A stretch of DNA of 35,575 nucleotides, taken from the IMG/VR virus record IMGVR_UViG_3300028388_004500, positions 1 through 35,575 of that record; one strand, 5' to 3'. This document shows, piece after piece, positions 8,425 through 35,575 of this stretch. A program made the position numbers and the translations under genes. Origin of the DNA: a virus. The notes below the pieces were generated by a model. It ran no database searches, was not told the DNA's origin, and saw nothing but the letters and a program-made list of their open reading frames with translations. Every line of letters starts with the position of its first letter. Positions within the stretch are counted from its first letter, which is position 1.

Positions 8425-8468
8425 ACGATCTTATAGTTTTAGGAGATTTAACAGTTCAAGGTGATATG
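8403..8468 (+). other. Second reading-frame break within the fibre gene
   Basis: The upstream frame ends ATDSTSHS-stop at 8422-8424. The downstream frame is open from 8406 and reads LNDLIVLGDLTVQGD (8421-8465) before ATG 8466. That segment is the normal start of a module seen at many other places. A -1 shift anywhere between 8406 and 8421 restores one continuous protein. No canonical X-XXY-YYZ slippery heptamer was seen here. Confidence 0.65.
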
Positions 8469-14400: not shown

Positions 14401-17400
14401 TAGCCGCAGGTAATACATCATTAGGCGGAACACTAGGTGTAGTCGGCACTGCTACACTAAGCGGAGCACTAAATGTAGACGGCGCTGCTTACGTAGACAA
14501 CATATTCGAAGCAACTGGTTCAACAGTGCTAGGCAGCACAGTTGACATTGGCGGCACGACTACGTTATCAGCTGCGTCTGACTTTGTGATGTATGACACA
14601 ACTCCGGCTATTGTGTTTTCAGTAGATGGTGCAACCGGTAACACATTCACTGAAGGCAGCTTAGACGTTACAGGTGATGTGTCAATTGGAAGCGAAACTA
14701 ACAGCATTAGTACACTTACAGGTGCACTGGTGGTCGCAGGCGGCGTTGGCATTGAGAAAGATGTCTTTACAGGCGGAAATTTAACCGTAGCAGGTGACAT
14801 TACATTTGGCGGAAATATTAATCTACAAGCATTGACACTAAATGCTGTGGCTTTCCTCAACGGCGGCATAAACGTAGACAACAAGTTTACTGTTAGCGGC
14901 ATCAACGGTGATGTATTTACTCAAGGCTCTCTAGAAGCAGGAAGCACCGTGCTATCTGGAACACTAGATGTAACAGGTGCTGTGGTAATTGAAGGCGATT
15001 CTACCAATAGTATTTCAAACAGCACAGGTTCATTGGTAGTACAAGGTGGCGTAGGAATAGCGTCAAACGTCAATGCTGGTGGAAATCTGGACATAGACGG
15101 ATTTGGTATATTCGGTGGAAGTTTAACAGTAAATGACGATATGCTTGTTGCAGGCACTGCTACTATCAGTGACGACACTACCATAGGTGGTAATTTATTC
15201 ATCACAGGTAGATCAGCCGCGACCCAAAATGCCATTGAAGTCACAAACACCACTACACAAAAAGTATTCACGGTTAACGGAGTTGACGGCGACACCTTTA
15301 TTTCAACAAACTTAACAGTGGGCACAGACTTGTTAGTGGAAGGCAGCACTGTTATTCGCGGAGATTTAACCGTTGAAGGTGACACTATTACAATAAGTGC
15401 AGCAACACTTGATGTAGAAGATAGAAATATAACACTTGCTAAAGGCGCCACAACCGCAGGAGAAGCTGACGGTGGTGGTATAACACTGGAAGGTGCAAAT
15501 GCTCTATTCACATATTCCAGTGGCAACGATCGTTGGAATTTAAACAAAGATCTAACTGTGCCAACCGTGATAGGCGATGTGACTGGAGACGTCACAGGAG
15601 CAGTTACTACTCCCGTAGGTGAAACATTTGAACTGCGTGGCGATTTCGACGTAAATGCTCAAAACACAGGCAGCTTGGACAACATAGTCATTGGCGGCAT
15701 TACCAAGCGAGCAGGCACATTTACCAGTGTAACTGCTGACACGCTGAACTTGACTGGTACAGGATCTATATCTACCAACAGCGGTGACATATCATCTCAG
15801 ACAGGTAATATATCAACAGTTGACGGTAATATAGTCACAACCAACGGAGATATCACAGGAAACATAATAACAGCTAATACCAGATTCCAAGGTGATCTAG
15901 AAGGTGCAACAGCTCAGCTTACCAGTGCCTTAGATTTAATTGGATCGGGCAGTATTACACTAGCCAGCGGCGATGTGACATCAATCAGTGGTAATTTTTC
16001 TACAGCTTCGGGCGATTTCTCAACTACTAGTGGTGATATGACTGCACAAACAATCACAGCTAACAATGTGTTTTTAGGACAGTTAGGCGAGGACGACAGC
16101 ACCGTGGCAGGCGCACAATCTCGTCAGGCAGCATATGTTTCGACTCTGGATACCCTATCTACACTGAGTGTAAACGGATTAAGTTTGTTAAACAACGGTC
16201 TTATTGTGGAAGGCACCACACAGATCAACGGAAACCTAAATGCAGCGGTAGGTACAACCGCTGAATTTGACAGTGTAATTATTAATGGCGATTTTGACGT
16301 TGCAACAATTACAATTAACGACTTTACAGTACAGGATACCCTGGAAGTAGGTGGACAAATAACAGCTGCATCTGGTGTAGAAGTTCAAGGTTTATTCCAA
16401 TCTATTAACTCACAGATGTCAGGCGCAACAATCACACTAAGCGATATTGACAGCACACCTATTGGTGCAAACATAGCCAGCACTGGTAGATTTTCAAGAC
16501 TAACAGTTACTTCCGATAATGTCACAATCGAAGACGGAAACGTAACCCTACAAAATGGCGATATAATATTAAGCAGTGGCGATATAGATATAGACGCTGG
16601 CAGTTTAACCGTTGCCACAGACATCACAGTGGGCAATAACTTAACAGTTACTAATGATATCACTGTGAGCGGATTTGTATTTGCAACCTCAGATACAAAT
16701 AACGGACTTGTTGGTGATGTGTATGCCTGGGACGGAACTTCTGCAACTAAAGTTTTACAAGCAGGCACCGACGGAACAGATGCTGCTTTCACTGGAGATG
16801 TGAGCGGTAATATTACTGCATCCGCCGGCACCAGCTCCTTTGTGGCCATAGAAGCATCAGGTTTGATAGAAGCAAATGGAGGAATAGAAGGAGATCTTGT
16901 TAGTGACAGTGTGGATATTAACGGAGGCACAATTGACGGAGTCAATATAGGCCTAGGAACAGCCGGCCAGGGTGATGCAAGATTTACCAATATGGAGGCA
17001 GCTGTTGTAGACATTGGCGGTGGACAGATAGACAGCGTGCAAATAGGTGCCGCAGGTTCTGGCAGGGCTGACGGTTACTTTAATATTTTAGACGCCAACA
17101 ACATAAATCTAACAGGCGGTTCTATTTCAAATGTGCAAATCGCCGCGGCAGGAAGCGGCAGAGCAAATGCTTTCTTCTTGAATGTAGACGCCAGCCAAGG
17201 TATTGATGGTACTTTAACCGGTAATGTGCTTACTACTGGAGGCGCAATAATAATTGACGCCACTGCAAATACTGTAAACGCAAGTTCAGTTACAGCCCAA
17301 GAAATTACAGCTACCAATGCACAAGGATTTATCGGTAACGTTAATGCTTCATCAGGCACCAGCCAATTTGCAACCATAAATGCCACCACAGTAAATGCAA

Positions 17401-20400
17401 ATCTAGTTGGTAACGTAACTGGACAAATAACAGCAGATGCATTAGGCGGAAGCAGTAGATTTCGTGATGTAACAGTGGTAGGTGAGGTAGTCATTAATAC
17501 TGATCTAGACGTACAAGGCATCGCTAATCTAGGCGCTAATATTAATGCCAATGGCGGCGCGATAAGCGGTGTTGATATTTCACAGGGTTCGATCACAAAT
17601 ACACCAATTGATAACAGCACTGTGGGAGGCACATTTAACACCCTTACTGTTAACAACACTATTAATGCAGATATAAATTCTGCAAGTTCAAGTTCATTTA
17701 ATCAAGCCAGCTTTGGCGGAAATGTAAATATCAATAATGCAGATTTGACTGTTTCAGGCGACATTACTGTAACCGCAGGTACACTCACGGGGATAATTCA
17801 AACACTAGCAGGAACCAAAATTGAACAGGCTGATATTGAAAACAGTGTGGTTGGCGCCAACGGCAATGTTGCTGCTGTAAACGGAACAACGATTACAGGT
17901 CAATCTGTTAGATCAACCGGCACTTTGCAAATAGACGGTGACGCAACAATAAATCGGATCATAGCAAACAGCGCAAATACAAGCGAAATCTTAAATTTAG
18001 AGTCCAATGCATTTTTATCTTCGGATGTAACCATAACTGGCGGATCTATCACTAGAACAGAAATTGGACAGGGCGGTGGTGAAGCTGATTTAATTAACGG
18101 TACAATTATTACAGCTGAAACTAGATTCCAGTCGGCGCAATACAATACTTCAGCAAACAGCGATGTAGACGATGTTAACCATTCGGCGGTTACAGGACAT
18201 TTCACTACCCTAAATGTTGATACTGTAAACACTGTGCGAATAAACATTGAAGAGACACAGGCATTTGAAGAAATTACAGTTGGCACCGGGGGTATAACAG
18301 TCCAGGGCGATGCCTTGTTCCAAAACGACGTCGAGATTGAAACTGAAACTATATTGCTACGAGCCAACCAGACACTGCCAGGTAACGCTGGATTAGTTAT
18401 TAATCGCAGCAGCTCAGAAAGTCCTGTACAGGTGAGCTTCCTGTGGGACGAGGTTAACGATACGTTTACAATCGGCAACCAAGATTTTGTTGCTGGCGAT
18501 ATCACTGCTGATAGGCTTAACGGAAACATCACTGCTGTAAGCGGCAATAGCACACTGAACAATTTAGAGATTACAAACAGTGCAGATCTAGGCACAAACG
18601 TAACCATCGAAGGCGGCGCAATTACTGATACACAGATTGGTACATCGGATCCGGCTGTTGGTAATGATAGCATTTATGGCACTGTTATCACAGCTCATAC
18701 TAGATTTGAAGGTGACATCACGGGCGATGTAACTAGCTCAGGGACATCTAGCTTCGCTGATATAACCGTGACAGGTGATGTAACAGGTAATATTACAGGC
18801 GTAGTTACTGGCACATCGGGTTCAAGCATAACAAACGGTTTTATAGTAGCCAGCACCATAGGTAGAAACAGCGGCGGCACAATTCAAAGGGGTGAAGGAT
18901 TTTTCACTAATCTGAATGCCAACGGAACCATCACTGCAACCGCATCGCAAGGATTTATTGGTAATGTAAACGCACCTGCTGGAACCAGTAGCTTTGACGT
19001 GTTAGAAGCCAGCGGTGACACAACACTGATAACCACAAACATAAACGGCGACCTCACAATGGGTGCAGGAACGACAGCATTCTTCCAGTCAATCAGTGTA
19101 TCTGGTACAGTGCAGTTTGACGAGTTAGATATCAGTCAAACACTGGATGTCACTGGTGATTTCCAGGTTATAGGTTCAGATCCTGCAAATCCCAAATTCA
19201 CAGTAAATTCAGCCACTGGTGCTGCAGAAGTAGACGGTGCGCTCACTGTTACTGGAAACAGCACACTGGAAGGAAATTTACTAGTTCAAGGCAACACAGT
19301 TTTAGGTGATGCAGTAACCGATGAATTAAGTATTACAGCTAAACTAGCAAGCGACCTGTTAGTTGATGCTAATAATGTGAGAGATCTAGGTGACAGCACC
19401 AATAGATTTTCAACGGTGTACACAAACGAATTAAACACTTCAGGTGATGTATTAGTTGGCGGCAACTTAACAGTGGAAGGTGATTTAACCACAGTTAGCA
19501 CAGAAACCATATTGCTCAGTGATAATATTATTGTGCTTAATTCAGATGTCACCGGCGCTCCTACCCAAGATGCAGGTTTAACCATTGAAAGAGGCACCGC
19601 ACCAAATGTGTCAATCCTTTGGGATGAAAACGCAGGTGAGTTTTCTGTAGGAGCAGAAACATTTAACGCAGCCGTATTCAAAGGTGATCTAAACTCCAGC
19701 TCTGATTCAACATTGATAAACTTTGTAAACAGAACTATTGAAAACATCACAGCGGCTACAGTGAGTGGCAATATTGACACAGGGTCTCTAGAAGCAACAA
19801 ACAATGTAGAAGTTGGAACAACACTGACTGTTGTAGGTCTGTCTACACTCGCCCAGGCAACTGTTGAGGATTTAACAGATAACCGAGTTGTCCTTGCTGG
19901 TACAGGAGGTCGATTAACCGACGATTCAAATCTTACCTTTAACGGCAATGCCTTCAATGTAGGCTCTCAGTTCGAAGTTACTGCTAGCTCAGGCGAAGTG
20001 GACATCGGTGGCAACTTAGAAGTTACAGGAACAGTATCTACGCAGGGTAATTTTGATGTGGCCACAGACAGATTTACTGTAAATGCAACATCAGGAAACA
20101 CAACAGTAGCAGGAACACTGGGAGTAACAGGCCTGTCTACACTGAACACACTCGCAGTAACGACTGATGCCACGGTAGGTGGGCTGTTAAATGCAAACGG
20201 AGGCATTGCGGTTGACACGGATAGATTCACAGTTGCGGACGCAACTGGTAATACCAATATTGAAGGAACTTTAGCTGTCCAAAGTCTAATGAGTCCAAAT
20301 GGTGGCATAAACGTAAACGCAGGGGTGTTTACGGTAGTAGGCGGAACTGGTAACACTGATATTGCAGGAACTTTAGACGTTACAGGCGAATCAACACTAG

Positions 20401-22934: not shown

Positions 22935-25900
22935 ATGGCAGATTTACGTGACCTAGTAGTAGCGCCAGGAACCAGTAGGTTTGATGGTGATGTGACATTC
23001 ACTACCACAGTAGATATCAACGGCGGAACCATCGACAATGTCACAATCACAAATGCCACACTGAACGATATGGTTGCTGTATCCGCGGATCAGTTTACAG
23101 GACCGCTTACTGGTGATGTGATTGGTGAAATTGGCAATGGCGGATCCAATCGAAATCCTGCTTGGTTTACAAACATAGATGCAACAGGTAATGCATCTAT
23201 AGGCGGAACACTCGGTGTTACCGGTATTGCAACCCTGCCAGAAGTTAACATTGATAGCGGATTCATAGATGGCACAAGAATTGGTCAAACAGTGCAAGCT
23301 GCCGCTGATTTTCTAAATGTTTCAGGAAACACCATAACAGCAAATACTGGATTTATTGGCAACATTACAGGACCTTCAGGTGGTACAGTAGGAACAAGCA
23401 CCCTTAACAATTTAACCCTAAATGGTAACCTTGTGATAAATTCTGGTAATTCTTTCACACTGGACGGCCAAACTGTTATAGATGCCGACAGAAATGCCAT
23501 TTTTGAATCTATTCAGGTCAACCAGACATTCGAACCTGCAACACTCACAGTCACAGGTACTGGAGTAAGCACCGTTGCAGGAAGCCTTGAAATCGCAGGC
23601 AACCTTACAGTAAGTGGCACCCAGACAACAATTAACACAGAACAAATTAACTTGGCAGATATTGCGATAGAATTAAATACAACAGCAACAGGTACTCCTG
23701 CAGATACCAATTATGGTCTTATAATTAACAGGGGCGCAGAATCTCCTGTTACACTTTTCTGGAACCAAACCACAGGGCGTTGGACCGTTGGTACAGGTAC
23801 AACTGGTATTTTTGAAGCTGCAACGTTTTTTGGAAATATTACAGGCGATGTTACAGGTAATGTCACTGGTGATGTTACAGGAAATGCAGACACTGCTGAT
23901 GCTTGGTCTACAGCACGCAGTGTGACATTTGCAACAGGCGACGTAACAGGTACATTTAGCATAGACGGCAGTGCAAACGTCACAAACGTAGATTTAACCA
24001 TTGAAGACAACAGTGTTGCACTAGGGACACAAACCACCGGAAACTATGCACAAGATGTAGGTGTAAGTGGTAATGGATTGTCTATCACAGGAGCACCGGG
24101 CGAAGGTACACAATTCGTAGTCAACAGTAATGCTGTAGCAACCGCTGATCCGCAAACACTGGTGTTTAGAAATGCGCTAGGCGACTTTGCAGCTCGAGTT
24201 ATCACAGCTGATACGTTTACTGGTAATATCGATTCTACTGCAGGTGTTGACAATCTATTTACTACCACAGTAGGAGACAGTTTAACAGTAACAGGAACTG
24301 CTACGTTTAACAATTCTGTCACCGTGTCAGCGGGACAGACATTTGCAACTGATACAGCTGCAATAAGTGGAGGCTCGATTGTGAGAACTCCAATAGGGCA
24401 AGGTGCTGGTAATCAAGCAGATGTTCGCGGTGATACCGTTATAGCTGTTACTGGATTTGAAGGAGACTTGACAGGAGATGTCACAGGAAACGCAGATACT
24501 GCATCTGCGCTAGATCATACCATACAGATCAGTTTGTCGGGAGATGTCACAGGAACATCAACGGGTAATAATCTGGCAGGCGGCGGAGTGACAATACCTG
24601 TGACTATACAGCCAGACAGTGTTGCATTAGGCACAGACACAACAGGTAATTATGCACGAGATATATCTGTTACAGGCGGCGGACTAACGCTCAGTGGTAC
24701 TCCTGGCGAAGGAACCCAATACGAAATAAGCAGTAATGCTACAAACTTAAACACACCGAACACCATTGTTCAAAGAGATACCACCGGTAGTTTTTCAGCC
24801 AACACAGTAAGTGCGGATTTAACTGGAGATGTAACAGGTACATTATTGGGTAATGTTGATATTGCTTCAGGAACCAGTAATTTTAACAATATAGATGTAG
24901 CTGGCAGCAGTACCTTAGCCTCTGTGGATATAAACAGTGGTAATATTGACGGCACTACAATTGGTGCATCTGTCCAAGCAGATGCAGACTTTTTAGATGT
25001 AAGCGGCGCAACAATCACAGCAACCACTGGATTTGTTGGGAACATTACAGGTCCTGATGCAGGACAAACAGGAACCAGCACACTTAACAATCTAACACTA
25101 AACGGCGATCTAACTGTTGACTCTGGTGTGATTCAAATTGGTACCAACACTGTTATTGATGAAAATAGAAACGCATTTGTCAACAACATTGATATTGGGG
25201 GCTCGTTTGCTATTAACACAATTACAATCGGTGAAACCACTCCTGGAGTGAGTGGTGATGGCTCCGTGTTTGAAGGAGCTGGAGGTGATTCTTCGTTTAA
25301 TAGTACGTTATCTGTGTCAGGCACATTTACTGCTGATGGCTCTGCAAGATTTGCAGCCCCGCAGATCACATTAAACTATGACTTACCTGGTGATACTGCA
25401 CCTAGTGAAAACGCAGGTATAATTGTAGAACGCGGTAACTTGAGTGATGTTGAATTTATTTGGAATGAAAGTCTTGATAGATGGAGCACAGGCGGACAAC
25501 CACTTACTGCAAGTGATTTTGTAGGAAGCATCGGTGCCACAACTAGAAGCACAGGACAATTTACTACCATTGACACCAGCTCCAATGCGGACATCGGCGG
25601 CATTTTGACAGTCACCCAAACAAGTACTCTCACAGGCGCAGTATCAGCGCCTGGTGGTATAACAGGTTCGTTAATTGGACAAGTAACACATTCCGCTGGA
25701 ACTTCTACTTTTGACAATCTTACTATCACCGGCGATGTTAGTATTGATGGAATATTGTCAGCAGACAACTTCGAATTGCCAGGTGTTACCAATGCCGGCA
25801 CACTTAATTTATCCGGTACATTAGATGTAAGTGGTAATATGTCCGGCGATGCTGACCTTACAATTCAAGGTACTGCTGATATTGGTACCGATCTAATAGT

Positions 25901-28900
25901 TAGAGGTCAACCTAGAATTCAAGGCACTACAATTCGACTGCATACTGAAGTATTAACCGGTAGTTTACCCAGTGTTGATGACGATGTGGGTATTGTAGTG
26001 AACAGAGGCGACGATGCTGACATAAAATTCCTATGGAACGAAGGTGTTGATAGATGGATAGCAGACACCGCATTACAGTCAGATAATATCTATGGCGAGC
26101 TTACTGGTAGCGTAAATGTTGGAGCCGGTGAAACTCTAGATGTAAGTGCAGGTACTTTAACATTAGCTGACAATCAAATTTCTGGTAATAAAGTTGAAGG
26201 CGGCACAATTAACGAGATAACGATTAATACAATAAACAGTGGAAATGCTGTTATTACCGGTGGTAGCATAGATGGCACGGTGATAGGCGGCACTACTTCT
26301 GCTAATATTACAGGTGATACGATTATAGCAGAAACAGGATTTGCAGGACCATTGTTTGGCCAAGTTACTGCCACAATCAATGGCGGCGGCACGTCAAACT
26401 TTGACAACCTAAATGTGCAAGGAACCACAACTCTAGACGACGTAACTGTAAACGGTATTACTACAATTGCTAATGATTTAAATGCCCAAGCAGGCACTAC
26501 TGCTACATTTGATGCTGTAGAAGTAGAAGATCTCACAATTAATCAAACCATTAATATTACAAATTTCGATGTTGGTGGGACTTTAACAGTAACCGGACTG
26601 GCAAGTTTTGAAAATAATTTTATCGATATTAACTCCAATCCAACTGGTGCATCAGATGCCGGCATCAACGTGGGCAGATTTGGTACTTCGGACGCAACCC
26701 TTAAATGGGATGTAGCCTCAGGACAATGGAGCTTCTCAGGAGCCGATGTTGCAGCAAGTTCATTTATTGGCACACTGGTCGGTCCAGTAGATTCGTCTAG
26801 TGTTGACATTGACGGCGGCAATATTGACAACACACCCATCGGTGAAAATACTCGCTCGTCAGGTCAGTTCACAACGTTAGATGCAACAGGTACAATAACA
26901 GGATCATTTAGCGGTCCTGTAACCAGTACCAATGTTGACATAGATGGTGGTGATATCAGCAGTACCACAATTGGTGCAAACGGTGCAACCACAGGACAAT
27001 TTACCACAGTGGCTGCGGATACAATAAATGTGTTTACAGGTACCGTTACGGCTCAAACTGTCGAAGCTACAAATACGCCTTATGGATTTATTGGTAATCT
27101 TGACGGTCAAATCAACGACATCAGCAACTGGAGCACAGCTGATCTCGCAGAAGATCCTAGCGCAACCGCAACATCGGGCACACAATACTTTACCACAACC
27201 AGGGTTGATGCACACCTAAGTGGCGGCTTAGGCGTGACATATACGAATGGTACTATTAATATCGGACAGCCTGTTGCCCCAACCGATAATGTTACTTTCA
27301 ATGATGTTAGGGTCGATGGTGATATAACTGTAATTGGAGCTATTGATGTACCTAACCTTACTGTAACGGGTGATCTTACAGTAAATGGAACAACCACCAC
27401 CTTAAACACAGAGACCATAAACCTAGAGGACGCCGTAATTAGATTAAATAACGGCGGCGCCGCATCGGACAGTGGCATTGAAGTTGCAAGAGGTGCAAAC
27501 CCTGCTGATGCAGTAGAATTGTTATGGAACGAAACCGCAGGTCGTTGGACGGTTAACAGCGAAGACTTCCAAGCTCAAATGTTTTACGGTGATTTGACCG
27601 GAGATGTTACGGGAAATGTTACCGCAGCCAGCGGCCAGAGTTCATTTGCCAGCGTGGTTATCGATGGAGGCAACATTGACGGTACAGCTATCGGTGTTAA
27701 CGCAACAGATGAAGGTAATTTTACCACTGTGGATGCTTCTGGTGATGTTACGGCAAATAGATTTTTCGGGCCCGTGACCGGAAACGTTACAGGCACAGTT
27801 TCAGATATAAGCAATCATACTACGTCTGCGCTGGCTGAAGGATCCAGATTGTATTTCACTGACGCTCGAGTTGATGCAAGACTAGACAGCACTAATACAA
27901 CTGGAGGAACAGGTGTTTCATATGCAAACGGTACTATCAGTATCGGACAGCCGGTTGGAACCTCAGACGATGTAACATTTAGAGATGTACAAGTTACTGG
28001 CACATTGGATGCAAATACATTTAATCCTACCAACATAACAACCACCGGCAATGTCACTGTGGGTAACAGTTTGACTGTTAATGGTTCTACTACACTGGGC
28101 GACACTGTAAACATCAAAGATAATGAAATTGTGCTAAACAGTGATTTTTCAGGAGGATCTCCAACCGACAATGTAGGATTTATTGTTAATCGAGACAGTG
28201 CAGGCAGTGTAAGTTTCATATGGGACGAAGCGGCTGATAAATTTACAATAGGCGGCAACACTATGGTTGCCGGTACATTTGAAGGCAATTTCACAAGTAC
28301 CGGTACAAGCACATTTAACACTGTTGATATCAACACTGTTGATATTGACGGCGGCAACATAGACGGCACCAAGATTGGAGCCAGCACCGCAGACACAATA
28401 ATAGGCACAGACATAGATGGAGAAACCATTACGGCCTCAGTGGGCTTTGTTGGCGATATTACTGGGAACGTCACAGGCGGACTTACACTTCAAACAGGCG
28501 AAACTGTTGATGTAAGTTCAGGCACATTTACCGTTCGCAACGATCAAATATCGGGCGATGCCGTTAACGGAGGCACAATTTCTAATGCATCACTGGCAGG
28601 CAATAATGCCGGCAACTCAATTACAGGAGTTGATATCACGGTGGGTTTTGCTAGAACACTCAATGTCGCCGGAGGCACACTTACACTAGCAAACAATCAA
28701 ATCTCCGGCGACAAAATTGACGGTGGAATAATAAGTGACGCAACACTCACAGGAAACGGTACAACTAACTCTATATCCGGCTATGACATAACTGTTGGCG
28801 CAGGCAAAGCACTTACGGTAAACGGAACCACAAACGTCAGTGTATTAAATGCCACAGGTTTGGCCAGCTTAGATGGAGGCATTGATGTAGACGGTGCATT

Positions 28901-31616
28901 TACCGTGGCAGATACCACAGGTGACACTGCTATATCAGGAACTTTATCTGCAGGAGCCACAACAGTTAACGGCACACTGGATGTTACCGGACTGGCCAGC
29001 CTAGATGGAGGAATTGACGTAGACGGAGCGTTCACTGTTGCAGATACTTCCGGAAATGTCAGCACAACTGGCAGCATAACAGGCGGCGTAATTACTTCAA
29101 ATTCAGGATTTGTAGGCAATATTAACAGCAACGGTGCTTCTGTGTTCTCAGGAACTATAAATCTTAATGGAGCAACTGTAAGCAATGCTACATTCGACCT
29201 AACGGGCAACTTAACCGGCGATGTTACATCAACAGGTACAAGTTCGTTCAGCGTTTTGAATGTTACAAACCTTGCCAGCCTAGATGGCGGTATTGATGTA
29301 GATGGTGCATTTACTGTGGCAAATGCAACAGGTAATATATCAACTTCAGGTACATTGACAGCCGCCGCTACAACACTGACCAGTTCTCTAGATGTAGCAG
29401 GATTAGCCAGCCTAGATGGCGGTATTGATGTAGATGGCGCATTCACAGTTGCGAACACTTCAGGTAACGTAAACACATCTGGTTCAATCACAGGTAACAC
29501 AATCACTGCTACATCAGGAATAACCGGTAACATTACATCAATAGGCACATCTGTGTTTTCGGGAACAGTAGACTTAAACGGAGCCACTGTAAATAACGCT
29601 GCGTTTAATTTAACGGGTAATTTAACTGGTAACGTCACTTCATCGGGTTCTAACTCTTTTGCAACTGTAACAGTTACAGGACTATCAAGCCTTGATGGCG
29701 GCCTAAACATTAATGATAATCTAACAGTAGATGCCGCCAACGGTAATACTGCAATATCAGGAACTTTATCGTCGGGTGCAACCACAATAAGCGGAACACT
29801 AAGTACCAGTGGACTTGCCAGTTTAGGCGGCGGCATTGATGTAGACGGCGCATTTACTGTTGCAGACACAACTGGAAATGTAAGCACATCGGGAAGTCTG
29901 GATGCAGGAAACACTACAATTGCAGGTACCCTAGGAGTAACAGGTCTTGCCAGCTTAGATGGAGGTATCAGTGTTGACGGCGCATTTACTGTTGCAGACA
30001 CAACTGGAAATGTAAGCACATCGGGAACTGTTAATGCAGGTGACATCACAGGCGATACTATTACAGCAACCACAGAATTTGTAGGCGACATAGTAGGAGA
30101 TATTACCAGTACAGGAACATCATCATTCTCTAATGTAAACATAACCGGAGGATCACTTTCAAATATATCACTGAGTTTAGGTGCAGGATCGTCTGTAAGT
30201 GCTAATGCAGCGTTTAATTTGACAGGTAACGTCACAGGTAATGTAACATCTAGTGGTGCATCGTCGTTCAGTGATGCGACAATATCAGGCGGCACTATTA
30301 ACGGAGTTGTTATAGGTGGTTCAACTCCTGGACAGATTACAGGAAGCACAATTACTGCTAACAATGGCTTCTCAGGCAATATCACAGGTAACGTAATTGG
30401 CAATGTCACAGGAGACGTAGTAGGAAATGTAACAGGAACTGTTAGTTCACTGGCTAACCATACCACCGATGATCTAGCCAATGGAACTGTAAACAAGTAT
30501 TATTCAGACATACTGGTAGATGCCCACTTGAGCGGAGGTGTAGGAGTTACTTACACCAACGGAGTAATTGATATCGGTCAGCCTGTAGGCACCAACGACG
30601 ACGTAACATTCAATGATGTTACTGTTAATGGGCAGTTACAGTTTATTGGAGATTTAAGTTTTGATAATCTAACGGTCACTGGTAATTTAGAAGTACAAGG
30701 ATCAACCACAACCATAGATTCGGAACTGATTGAATTGGCAGATAATATTATATTGCTTAACTCAAATGAAACAGGTTCCCCAAGTGTGAGTGCAGGCTTA
30801 GAGATTCAAAGAGGTACATCTGCAAACAAACAGCTTACTTGGAACGAAACTACAGACAAGTGGACAGTTGGCTCGGAAACATTTGTAGCCGGCAATTTTG
30901 AAGGTGACGTAACTGGCGAATTGACAGGAAATGTTACTGCAAGCACAGGAACCAGTTCGTTTAACGCTATAACAGCCAGCGGCACTATTACCAGCAACGG
31001 TGGCTTTGACGGCGACTTAACTGGGTCTGTGACAGGCAATGTAACAGGAACAGTAAGTTCTTTGTCAAATCACACCACAGATGATTTAGTAGAAGGTGCT
31101 AATCTTTATTATACAACTGCTAGACTAGAAAGCAGAATCGGTGGCAACCTAACAACCAGTATTATTCCAGCACAGGATGCTGTATACAATATAGGTTCTG
31201 CAACAGAACAATTTGCAAACGGGTTCTTCTCCGGCACAGTAGATGCAGGCACACTAACAGCACAAACCAAGAGCTTTATAATTGATCATCCAACTAAATC
31301 AGGAATGAAACTGAGATATGGATCTTTAGAAGGTCCAGAAAACGGTGTATACGTCAGAGGAAAACTCAAAGGCACAAACACAATTGAGATGCCGGATTAT
31401 TGGACAGGACTAGTAGACGAGGACAGTATCACGGTTACACTGACCGCAAACAGAGGATACCAGCAGCTGTTCGTAGCAGACATTGTAAATAACACAGTGA
31501 TTGTGGGAATAGAAAACAAAGATATTGCAGATATAGATTGCTTCTACACAGTCTGGGCAGAGCGCAAAGATGTAGCTCCATTCCAGGTTGAATACACAGA
31601 TAAAGGTGAGGAATAA
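22935..31616 (+). CDS. Second giant tail-fibre protein
   Basis: This 2,893-aa protein starts at ATG 22935, directly after the previous stop, with AAGGAG at 22920-22925. It is built from the same modules as its neighbour: GDVTGNVTG runs, WNE units (seven copies), the LGTQTTGNYA block (two copies), and NHTTDDL/LYFT/GQPVG units (several). A dense array of LASLDGGIDVDGAFTV units lies at 28840-30060. The C-terminal ~120 residues differ from the S74 domain: they contain FIIDHPTKSGMKLRYGSLEG, then MPDYWTGLVDEDSITVTL and an FYTVWAERKD end. This is a compact C-terminal domain I associate with fibre-type proteins of marine T4-like phages. The only Cys I noticed is in that domain. It probably forms a second long fibre, or a distal part of the same fibre; this is inference. 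Tandem TAATAA stops close it. Confidence 0.88.
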   Translation: MADLRDLVVAPGTSRFDGDVTFTTTVDINGGTIDNVTITNATLNDMVAVSADQFTGPLTGDVIGEIGNGGSNRNPAWFTNIDATGNASIGGTLGVTGIATLPEVNIDSGFIDGTRIGQTVQAAADFLNVSGNTITANTGFIGNITGPSGGTVGTSTLNNLTLNGNLVINSGNSFTLDGQTVIDADRNAIFESIQVNQTFEPATLTVTGTGVSTVAGSLEIAGNLTVSGTQTTINTEQINLADIAIELNTTATGTPADTNYGLIINRGAESPVTLFWNQTTGRWTVGTGTTGIFEAATFFGNITGDVTGNVTGDVTGNADTADAWSTARSVTFATGDVTGTFSIDGSANVTNVDLTIEDNSVALGTQTTGNYAQDVGVSGNGLSITGAPGEGTQFVVNSNAVATADPQTLVFRNALGDFAARVITADTFTGNIDSTAGVDNLFTTTVGDSLTVTGTATFNNSVTVSAGQTFATDTAAISGGSIVRTPIGQGAGNQADVRGDTVIAVTGFEGDLTGDVTGNADTASALDHTIQISLSGDVTGTSTGNNLAGGGVTIPVTIQPDSVALGTDTTGNYARDISVTGGGLTLSGTPGEGTQYEISSNATNLNTPNTIVQRDTTGSFSANTVSADLTGDVTGTLLGNVDIASGTSNFNNIDVAGSSTLASVDINSGNIDGTTIGASVQADADFLDVSGATITATTGFVGNITGPDAGQTGTSTLNNLTLNGDLTVDSGVIQIGTNTVIDENRNAFVNNIDIGGSFAINTITIGETTPGVSGDGSVFEGAGGDSSFNSTLSVSGTFTADGSARFAAPQITLNYDLPGDTAPSENAGIIVERGNLSDVEFIWNESLDRWSTGGQPLTASDFVGSIGATTRSTGQFTTIDTSSNADIGGILTVTQTSTLTGAVSAPGGITGSLIGQVTHSAGTSTFDNLTITGDVSIDGILSADNFELPGVTNAGTLNLSGTLDVSGNMSGDADLTIQGTADIGTDLIVRGQPRIQGTTIRLHTEVLTGSLPSVDDDVGIVVNRGDDADIKFLWNEGVDRWIADTALQSDNIYGELTGSVNVGAGETLDVSAGTLTLADNQISGNKVEGGTINEITINTINSGNAVITGGSIDGTVIGGTTSANITGDTIIAETGFAGPLFGQVTATINGGGTSNFDNLNVQGTTTLDDVTVNGITTIANDLNAQAGTTATFDAVEVEDLTINQTINITNFDVGGTLTVTGLASFENNFIDINSNPTGASDAGINVGRFGTSDATLKWDVASGQWSFSGADVAASSFIGTLVGPVDSSSVDIDGGNIDNTPIGENTRSSGQFTTLDATGTITGSFSGPVTSTNVDIDGGDISSTTIGANGATTGQFTTVAADTINVFTGTVTAQTVEATNTPYGFIGNLDGQINDISNWSTADLAEDPSATATSGTQYFTTTRVDAHLSGGLGVTYTNGTINIGQPVAPTDNVTFNDVRVDGDITVIGAIDVPNLTVTGDLTVNGTTTTLNTETINLEDAVIRLNNGGAASDSGIEVARGANPADAVELLWNETAGRWTVNSEDFQAQMFYGDLTGDVTGNVTAASGQSSFASVVIDGGNIDGTAIGVNATDEGNFTTVDASGDVTANRFFGPVTGNVTGTVSDISNHTTSALAEGSRLYFTDARVDARLDSTNTTGGTGVSYANGTISIGQPVGTSDDVTFRDVQVTGTLDANTFNPTNITTTGNVTVGNSLTVNGSTTLGDTVNIKDNEIVLNSDFSGGSPTDNVGFIVNRDSAGSVSFIWDEAADKFTIGGNTMVAGTFEGNFTSTGTSTFNTVDINTVDIDGGNIDGTKIGASTADTIIGTDIDGETITASVGFVGDITGNVTGGLTLQTGETVDVSSGTFTVRNDQISGDAVNGGTISNASLAGNNAGNSITGVDITVGFARTLNVAGGTLTLANNQISGDKIDGGIISDATLTGNGTTNSISGYDITVGAGKALTVNGTTNVSVLNATGLASLDGGIDVDGAFTVADTTGDTAISGTLSAGATTVNGTLDVTGLASLDGGIDVDGAFTVADTSGNVSTTGSITGGVITSNSGFVGNINSNGASVFSGTINLNGATVSNATFDLTGNLTGDVTSTGTSSFSVLNVTNLASLDGGIDVDGAFTVANATGNISTSGTLTAAATTLTSSLDVAGLASLDGGIDVDGAFTVANTSGNVNTSGSITGNTITATSGITGNITSIGTSVFSGTVDLNGATVNNAAFNLTGNLTGNVTSSGSNSFATVTVTGLSSLDGGLNINDNLTVDAANGNTAISGTLSSGATTISGTLSTSGLASLGGGIDVDGAFTVADTTGNVSTSGSLDAGNTTIAGTLGVTGLASLDGGISVDGAFTVADTTGNVSTSGTVNAGDITGDTITATTEFVGDIVGDITSTGTSSFSNVNITGGSLSNISLSLGAGSSVSANAAFNLTGNVTGNVTSSGASSFSDATISGGTINGVVIGGSTPGQITGSTITANNGFSGNITGNVIGNVTGDVVGNVTGTVSSLANHTTDDLANGTVNKYYSDILVDAHLSGGVGVTYTNGVIDIGQPVGTNDDVTFNDVTVNGQLQFIGDLSFDNLTVTGNLEVQGSTTTIDSELIELADNIILLNSNETGSPSVSAGLEIQRGTSANKQLTWNETTDKWTVGSETFVAGNFEGDVTGELTGNVTASTGTSSFNAITASGTITSNGGFDGDLTGSVTGNVTGTVSSLSNHTTDDLVEGANLYYTTARLESRIGGNLTTSIIPAQDAVYNIGSATEQFANGFFSGTVDAGTLTAQTKSFIIDHPTKSGMKLRYGSLEGPENGVYVRGKLKGTNTIEMPDYWTGLVDEDSITVTLTANRGYQQLFVADIVNNTVIVGIENKDIADIDCFYTVWAERKDVAPFQVEYTDKGEE
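28480..28850 (+). repeat. QISG module pair in the 2,893-aa protein
   Basis: Two units (QISGDAVNGGTISNASLAG and QISGDKIDGGIISDATLTG) are each followed by an (I/T)SG/TGxDITVG turn. They are closely related to the pair at 13630-13980, and a single unit lies near 26160. Confidence 0.75.
28840..30060 (+). repeat. Array of seven LASLDGGIDVDGAFTV repeats
   Basis: Seven units share L(A/S)SL(D/G)GG(I/L), mostly with VDGAFTVA and then a (T/S)GNxSTSG turn. Some are direct 44-residue tandems and others are separated by insert modules. It is the youngest-looking part of the fibre region, since some units are near identical in DNA. Confidence 0.85.
29844..30027 (+). repeat. 52-nt exact direct repeat
   Basis: 29844-29895 and 29976-30027 are identical over 52 nt, 132 nt apart (44 codons). 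They encode DGAFTVADTTGNVSTSG. In contrast to most repeats here they have no synonymous differences, so the duplication or conversion is recent. Confidence 0.85.
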
Positions 31617-31622
31617 TAACAG

Positions 31623-32324
31623 ATGGCAAACACAGATAAAAATATTGTAATTCGACCACGTCAAGGGGACACACTTAATCCTGTGATTGAATTTGTAGGT
31701 GCAGACGGATCTACTGGTCCTCAAACATTGGTGTTAGAAGTAACCGCAACAGACCAGGGCACAGTAACACTGAGTGGCGCATCAGGAACAATTTTACAAA
31801 TTGCAGATAATGCTACTGCTAAATTAGAAATAAATGGTACTGTTGCCCCTAGCTTGGATAATACTTACAATCTAGGCACCAGTGGATTGAAATGGAATAC
31901 CATGCATGCAACCCTGTTTAACGGAACAGCACTAGAGGCATTCTACGCTGACTTAGCGGAGAATTATATCGCAGACGAATTCTATGAACCTGGCACGGTA
32001 TTGGTGTTTGGCGGTGACGCCGAAGTAACTGTTACAGACACTGCTAATAACTTTAGGGCAGCAGGTATAGTATCTACACAACCTGCAACTCTAATGAACA
32101 CACAACTAGAAGGTTCCACAGTGGTGCCGTTAGCACTGCAAGGTAGAGTGCCCTGTAAAGTGATAGGAAGCGTAGAAAAAGGCGATTTGATTGTGACCAG
32201 CTATGTTGAAGGACACGCAATGGTTAATAATGATCCACCTATGTCCAGTGTTATAGGAAAAGCAGTTGGTGTTAAAACTGACGAAGAGCCCGGCGTTGTA
32301 GAAATAGTTGTTGGCAGGGTCTAA
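31623..32324 (+). CDS. Fibre-tip-like structural protein with DLAE-type C-terminal domain
   Basis: This 233-aa protein starts at ATG 31623, 6 nt after the giant fibre stop; GGTGAGGA (31606-31613) can serve as ribosome-binding site. The N-terminal ~100 residues have the same GTILQIADNATAKLEING and NTYNLGTSGLKWNTMHA style as fibre shafts. From about residue 107, DLAENYIADEFYEPGTVLVF begins a domain that continues with AGIVSTQPA, LALQGRVPCKVIG, KGDLIVTS and a VVEIVVGRV end. This domain occurs at the C-terminus of many phage and bacterial fibre-type proteins. It may be a separate tip or cap for the giant fibres. It ends with a 4-nt tail-to-tail overlap with the Nudix gene. Confidence 0.82.
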   Translation: MANTDKNIVIRPRQGDTLNPVIEFVGADGSTGPQTLVLEVTATDQGTVTLSGASGTILQIADNATAKLEINGTVAPSLDNTYNLGTSGLKWNTMHATLFNGTALEAFYADLAENYIADEFYEPGTVLVFGGDAEVTVTDTANNFRAAGIVSTQPATLMNTQLEGSTVVPLALQGRVPCKVIGSVEKGDLIVTSYVEGHAMVNNDPPMSSVIGKAVGVKTDEEPGVVEIVVGRV

Positions 32325-32755
32325 AACAAATCAGCCATTTCTTCTATGGTTGCCAGTTTAATTTTGTTTGTCTTTGCATTGAGAGTATTGCGCAACCCCT
32401 GATGCAAAGGCTTGGGCCAATTATTCATCCCTACCCAAGCATATCCGTCGTGTTCTGAATTAAGCAAAGGAATAAATTCTTCTCCAATAAGACAGAGATA
32501 GGTGTGAAATTGAAACTTTTCATCGCTGGAAATAAATGTTTCTAAAGGAATTGTTTTCACAATCTCAGGAAGCTCGCCTATTTCTTCTGTGATTTCTCTT
32601 TGAAGCCCTTCCCAGGGAGTTTCCGACTCTTTGTTTGCACCGCCCACAAGTCCCCATTGATTGCTTCTCTTGCCGTTTTTTCTATACAGCATTAGAAAAC
32701 GCCTAGTATCAAGGGTATAAAACAGTGCACCACTGCACACAATAAGTTCGCTCAT
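32321..32755 (-). CDS. Nudix hydrolase
   Basis: This 144-aa protein starts at ATG 32755. It has a Nudix box: GGANKESETPWEGLQREI followed by TEEIGEL, fitting GX5EX7REUXEEXG; the usual hydrophobic residue after the last Gly is Glu here. Residues R-E and E-E supply the metal-binding Glu cluster. The family hydrolyses nucleoside diphosphates linked to other groups; the substrate cannot be told from this sequence. A WGLVGG segment just before the box is typical of MutT-like members. It follows gp15 on the minus strand after 10 nt and is probably cotranscribed. It is the only enzyme seen in the window. No strong ribosome-binding site is visible. Confidence 0.9.
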   Translation of the reverse strand: MSELIVCSGALFYTLDTRRFLMLYRKNGKRSNQWGLVGGANKESETPWEGLQREITEEIGELPEIVKTIPLETFISSDEKFQFHTYLCLIGEEFIPLLNSEHDGYAWVGMNNWPKPLHQGLRNTLNAKTNKIKLATIEEMADLF

Positions 32756-32765
32756 ACAGTAATTA

Positions 32766-34187
32766 TTAATCTAGGCTGATGCGCCAGGTGCCAACTGGGT
32801 ACTCGCCGTCTATGCTTAATAGCCAATCACCGTCTGCATAACGATATTGCACACTGGTATTCAAATTGGTAACATATGTCACAGCAGAAGTTTCACTGCT
32901 GTCAAACACAATGTGCCACTGTGCACCGTCCCATTCTACAATATCATTTGCACTTGCAACAAAGCGTGTGCCGTCCGTGTTTTTCCAAGCGGCGGCTCCT
33001 TCTGTGGCAAGTTCATTGCCCACATCATCCAACAGCAACAGTCTAGTGCCTGCCTGCTTTACCGTGGTAGGATTGAATTTTTGGGGATCAATAATATAAT
33101 CGATTGTGGTTTTGTCACCTGTGGGACCTGATATAATGCTGTCCTGGGGGAAACTGTCCGAATCCCAGTTTATGCTGAGTTTGCTTTCGTCTAACGGGTT
33201 AAGGCTGATTGAACCTGTTACCACAGCATCTGAATCTTTGTTTTCTAAAAATATTCTGCTGATATCCGCAATATACTGTCCTGGCAGGCTTTCTAGAACG
33301 TCTCTCCAGTTAACACTGCCCACTGCACCTCTGTGTATAATTTGTGCAGTTGTGCCGTCTATGTACGCCCCATAATTGAGGTAGTTTACGTTTGCCATTT
33401 GATCCGTGCTTTCTGTCACAGACTTTCTGCCAAATTGATTTTCTGTTACACCTGGAGATATTGCATCATCGTAGGCGTTTGTTATGGGTCTGGAAACACC
33501 AGTTTCTATGTCACCAATGTCTTCATTGAACATACTGGTAATAATGTTTGTGATAACGCCCAGCTTCTTGACTTTTGCAGGCGGAGATATGTATATAGGA
33601 ATATTAAAGCTTAACGTAGCAACATCTATTTCTGAGTCCACGCCTGCGGGAATAGTTCTGTTGCTCCAATTTATGTTTTCCAATTCCAGTGTGGTAATGC
33701 TGGTCCAATCCACAAAGTTATCTGTTGTTTGCAGCTCCAGAGTCGGATTAAACCATACCCCTATCTGCTCAATTACCTGAAGCTTTTGATCAGTATTAGA
33801 CGTCCATATGTCGACGTTTGCCTTAAGCAAATAGGGTGTTGGCATCAATCTTTCTACAGTGTAATTCTTACCCTGAGTATTAAGGTATTCTTCGCCGTCC
33901 TCATCGTAAGCACGTTCTTTGATGTTCAGCTTGTTTATGAACGTGGCATCTTGTGTGCGATCTCTGTCCTGCTCCAGTCCTGTGAGATACACAGCCATTC
34001 TGGGTGCGCTGGGCAGTTTGTTTTCTGAGTTGTCACGAATAATGTTTGCAACCTGGCGTGTAATATCACCGTACACTACCGGAATAGCAGTAATGGTTCC
34101 GTCACCGTATCGCACAGGAAAGTTGCTGAGCAGTCTCATCAACTGGGTAACATATCTGCGTATTTGCCCGTCGTAAAAAAATTCCAT
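32766..34187 (-). CDS. 15: Tail sheath stabilizer / tail completion protein gp15
   Basis: This 473-aa protein starts at ATG 34187. The N-terminal half matches T4 gp15 in order: an FFYDGQIRRYVTQLMRLL start (T4 has FYNSSFRRYATLM), an IPVVYGD strand, AVYLTGLEQDRDRTQD, a VERLMPTPYLLKANVDIWTS strand (T4 PSPIKMIYELSIFT), then LQVIEQIGVWFNPTLELQ (T4 FQIVEQILPYFQPHFN) and IYISPPAKVKKLG. In T4, gp15 caps the tail tube and sheath and joins the tail to the head neck. T4 gp15 is 272 aa; the extra ~200 C-terminal residues (with TTIDYIIDPQKFNP and ANDIVEWDGAQWHIVFD) are of a type I associate with marine relatives. Its start codon overlaps the gp14 stop by 1 nt (TAATG), indicating coupling. Confidence 0.88.
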   Translation of the reverse strand: MEFFYDGQIRRYVTQLMRLLSNFPVRYGDGTITAIPVVYGDITRQVANIIRDNSENKLPSAPRMAVYLTGLEQDRDRTQDATFINKLNIKERAYDEDGEEYLNTQGKNYTVERLMPTPYLLKANVDIWTSNTDQKLQVIEQIGVWFNPTLELQTTDNFVDWTSITTLELENINWSNRTIPAGVDSEIDVATLSFNIPIYISPPAKVKKLGVITNIITSMFNEDIGDIETGVSRPITNAYDDAISPGVTENQFGRKSVTESTDQMANVNYLNYGAYIDGTTAQIIHRGAVGSVNWRDVLESLPGQYIADISRIFLENKDSDAVVTGSISLNPLDESKLSINWDSDSFPQDSIISGPTGDKTTIDYIIDPQKFNPTTVKQAGTRLLLLDDVGNELATEGAAAWKNTDGTRFVASANDIVEWDGAQWHIVFDSSETSAVTYVTNLNTSVQYRYADGDWLLSIDGEYPVGTWRISLD

Positions 34188-35347
34188 TAATTATCCGCCT
34201 TGGGTCTAAGAGCTTTACTTAGAGCTTGTCTTTCTGGCACCGTCTCACCGCCTATGCTGTTTGTGGCGGTGTTGTTGATAAAGCCTGCTTTCTGCGTGCT
34301 TCTGGTGTTGTTATTGGTGAGTGTTTCTCTGAGAGAATCCTCTACCTTGATCCAACGCTCGCCGTCATATCTAAACAGCCTGTTGGGCAAAAAGTCAGTG
34401 CGCATGAAATAATCACCCCGTTCGTTATCCAGTGGAAACTGTATGCCACTTCCAAACGCGGCTCCATTGGGTGCTTCACCGTCACCGTAATTGAGCAGAT
34501 AGCCTGTGTAACCCTGTCTTGCAGGAGGAACAACTTCCGAAGTGTTTACGCCCGTGCTGTCAACTTCGGTATCCGTGGCAGGACGCAAATCTACCTGCCC
34601 GTCTTCTGTTCTAGTCACGGTGTAGAAATGACTGGTTTCGTATCCGCTGAGGGGTGCTTCGGCTTCGCCTTGTTTGATGACAGCATCATTGATTTGCATT
34701 TCTTTGTCGTACACTGATAGTAAATCTCTCAGTGTGTCTCCGCCTGGATTTTCTTCTTCGGCTGGCAAGTCCAGTATTTCTTTGAATTCTTGTCCGTCGT
34801 ATATCTGTTTCAGTTTCAGCCTGTAAAGATGCGGATACCAAGTGTGGCTGAATCCTTCTGAGGCTCTGTTTACATCTTCTATAACGTAGAAACGCTTTAG
34901 TGCCACTGAATAATCATTAAGGGCATATTCGTCCTTTAAATGCGGAAGTTCTATGACATCACCGCTGAGAGGTTTTCTGCCCAGTGTTTTCACAATGTTG
35001 CGAATGTGCACAGTCATAAACAGCGTGTCATTGCTCAAGAATAATCCAAACGCACTCAGATCAAAATCTATATCTTGCACGTTGTAAATGGCGCGGGTTT
35101 TATAGATATCCGGATCATACTTTCTGTCTCTGTTTTCAAGGAACAGCAAGTCTTGAATGTTGGTTTCTTTCACAGCATCGTATTGTGGTTGTACCGCATC
35201 AGCTTCATCGTCGGATAGATTGTTACTTCCTAGATATTTGTGAATATTGATTTCGGTACCACCTACCACAAACATCTCTTCGATTTGCTTGTCTAGAAAT
35301 TCGTAATCGTTACCGCGTTCGGGCTTGTATAGTGACAGTCTTGGCAT
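34187..35347 (-). CDS. 14: Neck protein gp14
   Basis: The start chosen is ATG 35347 (MPRLSLYKPERGNDYEFLD), giving 386 aa; ATG 35353 two codons upstream is possible. The order of features follows T4 gp14: GGTEINIHKYLG, a FGLFLSNDTLFMTV strand, KPLSGDVIELP (T4 KEPKEGDLIYFP), an RFYVIEDV segment and a YDGQEFKEI segment. In T4, gp14 with gp13 forms the collar that closes the filled head and receives the tail. T4 gp14 is 256 aa; the C-terminal extension here has PLDNERGDYFMRTDFLPNRL and RYDGERWIKVED. The promoter-like GATAAATA element directly upstream would place transcription start at or next to the A of ATG 35347. The gene is divergent from gp13, whereas in T4 genes 13-14-15 share a strand. Confidence 0.87.
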   Translation of the reverse strand: MPRLSLYKPERGNDYEFLDKQIEEMFVVGGTEINIHKYLGSNNLSDDEADAVQPQYDAVKETNIQDLLFLENRDRKYDPDIYKTRAIYNVQDIDFDLSAFGLFLSNDTLFMTVHIRNIVKTLGRKPLSGDVIELPHLKDEYALNDYSVALKRFYVIEDVNRASEGFSHTWYPHLYRLKLKQIYDGQEFKEILDLPAEEENPGGDTLRDLLSVYDKEMQINDAVIKQGEAEAPLSGYETSHFYTVTRTEDGQVDLRPATDTEVDSTGVNTSEVVPPARQGYTGYLLNYGDGEAPNGAAFGSGIQFPLDNERGDYFMRTDFLPNRLFRYDGERWIKVEDSLRETLTNNNTRSTQKAGFINNTATNSIGGETVPERQALSKALRPKADN

Positions 35348-35352
35348 ATACA

Positions 35353-35360
35353 TATTTATC
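35353..35360 (-). promoter_or_regulatory. Candidate T4-type late promoter for gp14-gp15-Nudix
   Basis: The minus strand reads GATAAATA at 35360-35353, matching the T4 late core except in the first base. By T4 spacing (core about -13 to -6), the start would be at about 35347, the A of the gp14 ATG. No Shine-Dalgarno sequence lies before that ATG. Confidence 0.55.
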
Positions 35361-35366
35361 GTAACG

Positions 35367-35374
35367 AATAAATA
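35367..35374 (+). promoter_or_regulatory. Candidate T4-type late promoter for gp13
   Basis: AATAAATA at 35367-35374 differs from TATAAATA in the first base only. T4 spacing puts the start near 35380, giving a leader of ~11 nt that contains GGAG (35381-35384), 6 nt before ATG 35391. It is separated from the minus-strand element by 6 nt. Confidence 0.55.
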
Positions 35375-35390
35375 CAATACGGAGAACAAT

Positions 35391-35575
35391 ATGAGCGATT
35401 TAGTTACCCAAAAGCAAGAAATATTCGATTATGTAAACACATTCTTAGGCGGCGGCATGGTGGATGTAGAGCTTGATCCTATACACTATGAAACTGCACT
35501 AACCAAAGCACTGACACGGTTTAGACAGAGAAGCGACAATGCCGTGGAAGAAAGCTATATGTTTATGCCCACGGT
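35391..35575 (+). CDS. 13: Neck protein gp13 (3'-partial)
   Basis: The first 61 codons are in the window; the gene runs off the right edge. ATG 35391 follows GGAG at 35381-35384. The pattern KQEIFDYVNTFLGGGMVDVE, then LDP, then ALTKALTRF matches the N-terminus of T4 gp13 ([20 protein letters not shown] ... CIQRALELY). In T4, gp13 binds the portal side of the filled head with gp14 to form the neck. The assignment rests on the N-terminal pattern and on adjacency to gp14 and gp15. Confidence 0.83.
   Translation, partial: MSDLVTQKQEIFDYVNTFLGGGMVDVELDPIHYETALTKALTRFRQRSDNAVEESYMFMPT

Follow-up and report, generated by a model that had tools for sequence, protein, structure and literature searches.

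We analyzed the virus record IMGVR_UViG_3300028388_004500 from IMG/VR over its whole stretch of 35,575 nucleotides (nt), positions 1 to 35,575, which is referred to below as the window. An open reading frame (ORF) was called on the plus strand at 22935..31616, and its repeat-rich, fibre-like product of 2893 amino acids (aa) held an array of 44-aa units. Within this array, a stretch of 52 nt in unit 6 (29844..29895, plus strand) was identical to a stretch in unit 7 (29976..30027, plus strand), as the initial annotation had stated. The two copies were 132 nt apart and in frame, and they formed the longest exact repeat of the whole window. Our results suggested that the identity was probably left by a short intragenic conversion-like tract, transferred probably from unit 7 to unit 6, and that no unit was added or removed.

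The array contained seven units on the plus strand with a LASLDGG-like motif, which was changed in two of them (GLSSLDGG and GLASLGGG). Units 1 (28857..28988) and 3 (29268..29399) were A-type, and units 2 (28989..29120) and 4 (29400..29531) were B-type. Unit 5 (29679..29810) was diverged and had an A-like tail. Unit 6 (29811..29942), the probable recipient, combined an A-type tail with the B-type 52-nt patch, and unit 7 (29943..30074), the probable donor, stood at the B position of the third period. The seven units described in the initial annotation were present, but they formed a higher-order repeat of 411 nt with uneven spacing and not a plain tandem row. The spacing between units was 132, 279, 132, 279, 132, and 132 nt (44, 93, 44, 93, 44, and 44 codons). 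Each 411-nt period consisted of an A unit (132 nt) and a B unit extended by a long tail (279 nt), and two occurrences of it showed 67% identity. The third period contained one additional 132-nt unit compared with the first two. Either unit 5, which was left over when the three periods were aligned, or the mixed unit 6 may be the extra one. The extra unit was the only sign of unit gain within the array. Judging from the sequence comparison, it looked old because the most similar unit pair (6 and 7) was 75% identical over 132 nt.

The next longest exact repeat of at least 25 nt in the window was 32 nt long and also had an offset of 132. It was located on the plus strand in unit 3 (29274..29305) and unit 4 (29406..29437), and it was followed by a repeat of 26 nt. 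When the codons of the 2893-aa gene were shuffled synonymously 1000 times, the longest repeat had a mean of 19.8 nt and a maximum of 36 nt, and 52 nt or more was reached in 0/1000. This meant that the 52-nt repeat was real and went beyond what the shared, repeated protein sequence alone could explain.

The patch contrasted sharply with the rest of units 6 and 7. The two units were 100% identical at the nucleotide level over columns 33-84, compared with 70% over columns 0-32 and 51% over columns 85-131, and all of the 33 differing positions among 132 were outside the patch. The same tendency was observed at codons for the same residue, which were identical in 3/9 cases before the patch, 17/17 within it, and 3/4 after it (patch 17/17 versus outside 6/13, Fisher P 0.0008). 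The remaining 20 unit pairs shared 18-73% of same-residue codons in the patch columns. When the 100 columns that varied among the seven units were permuted, the identity run of 36 in pair 6-7 was reached in 0/5000 permutations. The run of 19 in pair 3-4 gave a global P of 0.0064, and the third-best pair gave 0.32. Permutation of codon runs was consistent with this, with P values of 0.0028 for pair 6-7 and 0.002 for pair 3-4, and the lowest value among the other 19 pairs was 0.09. Of the four pairs of adjacent units spaced 132 nt apart, two (6-7 and 3-4) therefore carried a patch. Conversion tracts are recognized by identity between copies that is locally raised over their own flanks, and this was found in units 6 and 7. 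Units 3 and 4 showed a weaker instance of such a patch.

Unit 6 was a mixture of the A and B types. Over aa 28-44, its identity to the A units 1, 3, and 5 was 0.65, 0.41, and 0.53, and that to the B units 2, 4, and 7 was 0.24, 0.18, and 0.29. In the patch, the nucleotide identity of unit 6 was 0.79 and 0.73 to the B units 2 and 4, and 0.67, 0.71, and 0.48 to units 1, 3, and 5. Since unit 6 had an A-type tail and a patch equal to that of unit 7, copying from unit 7 to unit 6 was the simplest account. A segment of one repeat would have been transferred in register to the adjacent unit, 132 nt away, as the DNA recombined. The donor would probably be the B-type unit 7 and the recipient the A-type unit 6, as suggested by few sequences, and the number of units would be left unchanged by the event. 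The copying may have been recent, and recombination enzymes of the phage or the host would presumably be the agents. The effect on the protein was probably small, with residues reshuffled within a repeat of the presumed fibre shaft. The perfect homology of 52 nt could in principle serve later unequal crossing-over.

Relatives of the array were searched in sets outside of which records very near the genome of the window may fall, and the lists of relatives consisted of the best 80 of 410, the best 80 of 178, and the best 80 of 105. Neither blastn of 28800-30200 nor tblastn of 28836-30140 gave a match at E 1e-5 against 50,697 phage records, and the protein query from 26700-28500 found no relative. 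By the flank, the nearest phages were L088 and L089, with 95.3% nucleotide identity to the window over 32318-35575. At E 1e-5, no blastn match of these two ran on into the adjoining partial ORF of 3182 aa, which shared only 21% identity with part of the 2893-aa protein. The break at window position 32318 was sharp and looked as if the fibre region had recombined or been rearranged next to a conserved flank. A loss of the whole fibre cassette in these phages was considered and turned out to be wrong, because related ORFs were located farther along the L088 contig (seen as L012). One was a partial ORF of 2184 aa that shared 47% identity with the C-terminal half of a 4822-aa protein encoded upstream in the window. 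The other, of 2243 aa, shared 41% identity with residues 1-2258 of the 2893-aa protein and was too distant for unit counting. The L012 ORFs had scattered DNA matches to the window, for example 78% over 27134-27455, and the array motif occurred 0 times in the fibre-related ORFs of L088/L012. The flank was near identical, whereas the fibre genes were far diverged and otherwise composed.

A more distant group, L008-L011, was reached via the downstream gene for a 233-aa protein, and the downstream protein of this group was 63-70% like the C-terminal part of the 233-aa protein of the window. Their fibre-like gene was about 29% identical to that of the window over the best chain. A 396-nt module was present in two copies in L010 and in one copy in L008 and L011. 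The two copies in L010 were 92% alike over the full length, and the similarity dropped to background at both ends. Copy 1 was 93.7% identical to L008 versus 91.9% to L011, and copy 2 was 97.7% identical to L011 versus 91.9% to L008. In another pair, L070 had one 120-nt unit more than L077. These differences of 396 nt and 120 nt indicated that the number of whole modules changes in related fibre-like genes. In addition, L010 and L021 contained an in-frame segment of 321 nt (region of L010 ORF positions 5094-5469) that L008 and L011 lacked. The repeats shared by its ends were short (53% over 55 nt), and there were no long flanking repeats.

The generality of such patches was surveyed in 238 fetched loci (L008-L245) and the window. 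The loci had been fetched by similarity to the 2893-aa gene or to the neighbouring gp15 gene, ORFs of at least 400 aa were compared, and ORFs were classed as fibre-like solely from their residue composition. Near-identical orthologues were excluded only where an exact 200-nt key agreed, and the sample was neither random nor fully independent. Exact repeats of at least 40 nt were found in 41/217 fibre-like ORFs versus 2/249 other ORFs, and those of at least 52 nt in 22/217 versus 0/249. Among the repeats of at least 48 nt in fibre-like ORFs, 44/48 were shorter than their own spacing, and four had an offset of 132 (L039, L072, L187, and the window). The flank identities of the surveyed repeats ranged from background to 98%, so not every repeat need be the result of conversion.

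Repeats of at least 36 nt were also compared between related pairs with less than 99.5% identity, which gave 15 rows. The clearly directional row was L025 versus L169, in which a 52-nt patch was located at L025 ORF positions 1242 and 3237, 1995 nt apart. At 9/9 informative sites, the sequence was like the second copy of L169. This patch of L025 was likely a conversion event, or else the identity had been lost in L169, as judged from the two sequences. The L025/L169 pair was one clear analogue of the conversion reading and not a general proof. It is possible, though rather doubtful, that short in-register copy tracts of about 50-110 nt are a general and ongoing form of shaft rewriting in giant phage fibre genes and are commoner than the gain or loss of whole units.

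Several observations weighed against a conversion-like transfer. The direction was based on few, diverged units, and in the patch, unit 4 (0.73) was barely above unit 3 (0.71). The 3' edge was less sharp at silent sites, where 3/4 same-residue codons matched too, and the neighbour pairs 1-2 and 5-6 carried no such patch. In the case of the relatives, many identical patches were poorly matched in their flanks, and insertion of a copied piece would fit equally. Only 1/15 rows of the related-pair comparison was clearly directional. In 6/15, the copies were identical in both phages, some of them at 87% overall identity, so that some patches were old or held by constraint. The other 8/15 were mixed or pointed in one direction at no more than two sites. 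No second genome with the array was found for a before-and-after comparison.

The initial annotation had read the repeat as the current site of copy-number change by unequal recombination. A 132-nt unit would then have been gained recently by unequal crossing-over, and its flanks would have diverged fast afterwards. The additional unit in the third 411-nt period is consistent with such a gain, as is the A/B mix of unit 6, which is expected of a crossover product, and related fibre-like genes do gain or lose whole modules. However, a 132-nt duplication predicts identity over about 132 nt, and the 33 differences between units 6 and 7 spared only the patch. In the 5' flank, 6/9 same-residue codons differed, and the tail of unit 6 was 45% like that of unit 5. 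The genuine 396-nt module pair in L010 was alike throughout. Recombination between the copies was supported by the permutations, whereas a current change of copy number was not, since the identity covered 52/132 nt and ended inside the unit, with diverged flanks. A recent whole-unit duplication was rejected as the main explanation for this reason, and we considered it unlikely. Somewhat less likely still was an import, in which the patch or a longer mosaic would come from the array of a co-infecting phage. Phages have probably recombined with each other at this locus, given the near-identical flank of L088/L089 that had no blastn match (E 1e-5) into the fibre genes, and the two 396-nt copies of L010 resembled different relatives (copy 1 L008, copy 2 L011). 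However, an imported patch would need 52 nt of exact identity with the adjacent unit, and a 32-nt pattern from the patch had 0 exact matches in a scan of viral contigs, a set from which very near records were possibly missing.

The same identity could in theory reflect constraint or chance, if selection kept the same protein and the same codons in both units. The residues of the patch region were alike in most units, and the comparisons of related phages in which both kept an exact repeat identical (6/15) fit this account. It was nevertheless very improbable, since the synonymous shuffles gave 0/1000 and the other 20 pairs shared far fewer same-residue codons than the 17/17 of pair 6-7. The least probable explanation was an assembly artefact, that is, a join or collapse at the repeat. 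As an IMG/VR virus record, the window would allow for such an error, but the frame was open across the array, and a repeat of 52 nt is shorter than the usual short-read length. Two further candidates were rejected. The 33 differences were not adenine-specific, with 8 adenines at these sites in each of the two units, which spoke against a diversity-generating retroelement, for which the reverse transcriptase gene was not searched for. An inversion switch was discarded, as there were no inverted exact 25-mers within the window.

The nature of the 2893-aa protein was examined together with its neighbours. No Pfam family was found at E 0.01 in the protein, including the 44-aa units. The C-terminal part matched two families of unknown function, phrog_17490 (2.1e-36) and phrog_28536, and the protein also matched phrog_697 ('head and packaging, structural protein') with 33.5 bits. 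Among the relatives of 30420-31613, that in Roseobacter phage CRP-207 was annotated as 'putative tail fiber protein' and those in Flavobacterium phages as 'putative tail fiber-like protein'. C-terminal relatives were present in 59 phage records, 37 of which were Synechococcus phages, and among the matches listed some were annotated as tail fibre and most as hypothetical. The predicted structure of the array (10 sequences) had a mean pLDDT of 50.3 and a pTM of 0.23 and was unusable as a model. Because the protein had no Pfam match and the array model was unusable, we could only infer that the product forms a fibre shaft, and a variation in fibre length would be more tentative still.

A T4 gp15-type tail sheath stabiliser was located at 32766-34187 on the basis of Pfam (PF16724, 85.6 bits), and its best isolate match was 35% identical. 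The fibre-like locus thus adjoined a tail gene of contractile-tail phages, as in the T4-type tail fibre locus. A NUDIX hydrolase gene lay on the minus strand between the fibre genes and gp15 (32321-32755), and in Pseudomonas phages such as Cassandra a MutT/NUDIX annotation also appeared under the match to the sheath stabiliser. A virion structural protein followed at 34187-35389. Upstream, the ORF at 8466-22934 encoded the 4822-aa protein, which had a C-terminal Peptidase_S74 chaperone domain, as is usual for fibres and spikes, and was one in a row of giant repeat-rich ORFs. An antisense ORF of 571 aa (28781-30496, minus strand) covered the array. Long antisense ORFs were common along such repeat-rich genes and were probably an effect of composition.

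Duplications within fibre genes have precedents. In the case of T4, Tetart in 1996 reportedly found a small region of the tail fibre adhesin duplicated, with a widened host range. Excerpts of PMC2248197 cite such T4 fibre duplications. As far as these excerpts tell, T4 is similar in that a duplication inside a fibre gene alters its content, and it differs in that the adhesin region is affected there and a patch in a presumed shaft repeat here. The same excerpts describe in-frame repeats of tail fibre domains in the Xanthomonas oryzae phages OP1, Xp10, and Xop411 (1-2-3, 1-2-2-2-3, and 1-2-3-3-3), propose a role of short repeats in domain gain and loss, and tie the change to host range (PMC2248197). 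Repeated in-frame units inside a tail fibre gene were thus common to these phages and the window. However, the number of whole domains and the host range are concerned there, whereas here it is a patch inside a unit, known from sequence (PMC2248197, in part). The crAssphage BACON tandem array, according to portions of PMC6949934, belongs to a tail-associated protein with internal single-unit duplications and a stable number of eight units. It is like the present array in having tandem units in such a protein, and unlike it in having the named BACON domain, as the 44-aa units here had no Pfam family and mixed spacing (PMC6949934, in part). None of the titles and abstract openings listed in the literature searches dealt with conversion tracts in fibre genes of this kind.

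Recombination within the fibre genes of phages is already known, and the window is an ordinary example of it among repeats. The difference is that the identity seen here most likely reflects a transfer from one unit to another and not the unit gained last. The case corrects the natural assumption that an identical patch denotes the newest unit, and it provides a sequence-level example of how the repeats of a giant phage fibre-like gene get mixed and kept alike. If such patches are indeed as frequent as our survey suggests, unit-by-unit trees of fibres would mislead, and fibre variation would arise in part from reshuffling and not from a change in length.

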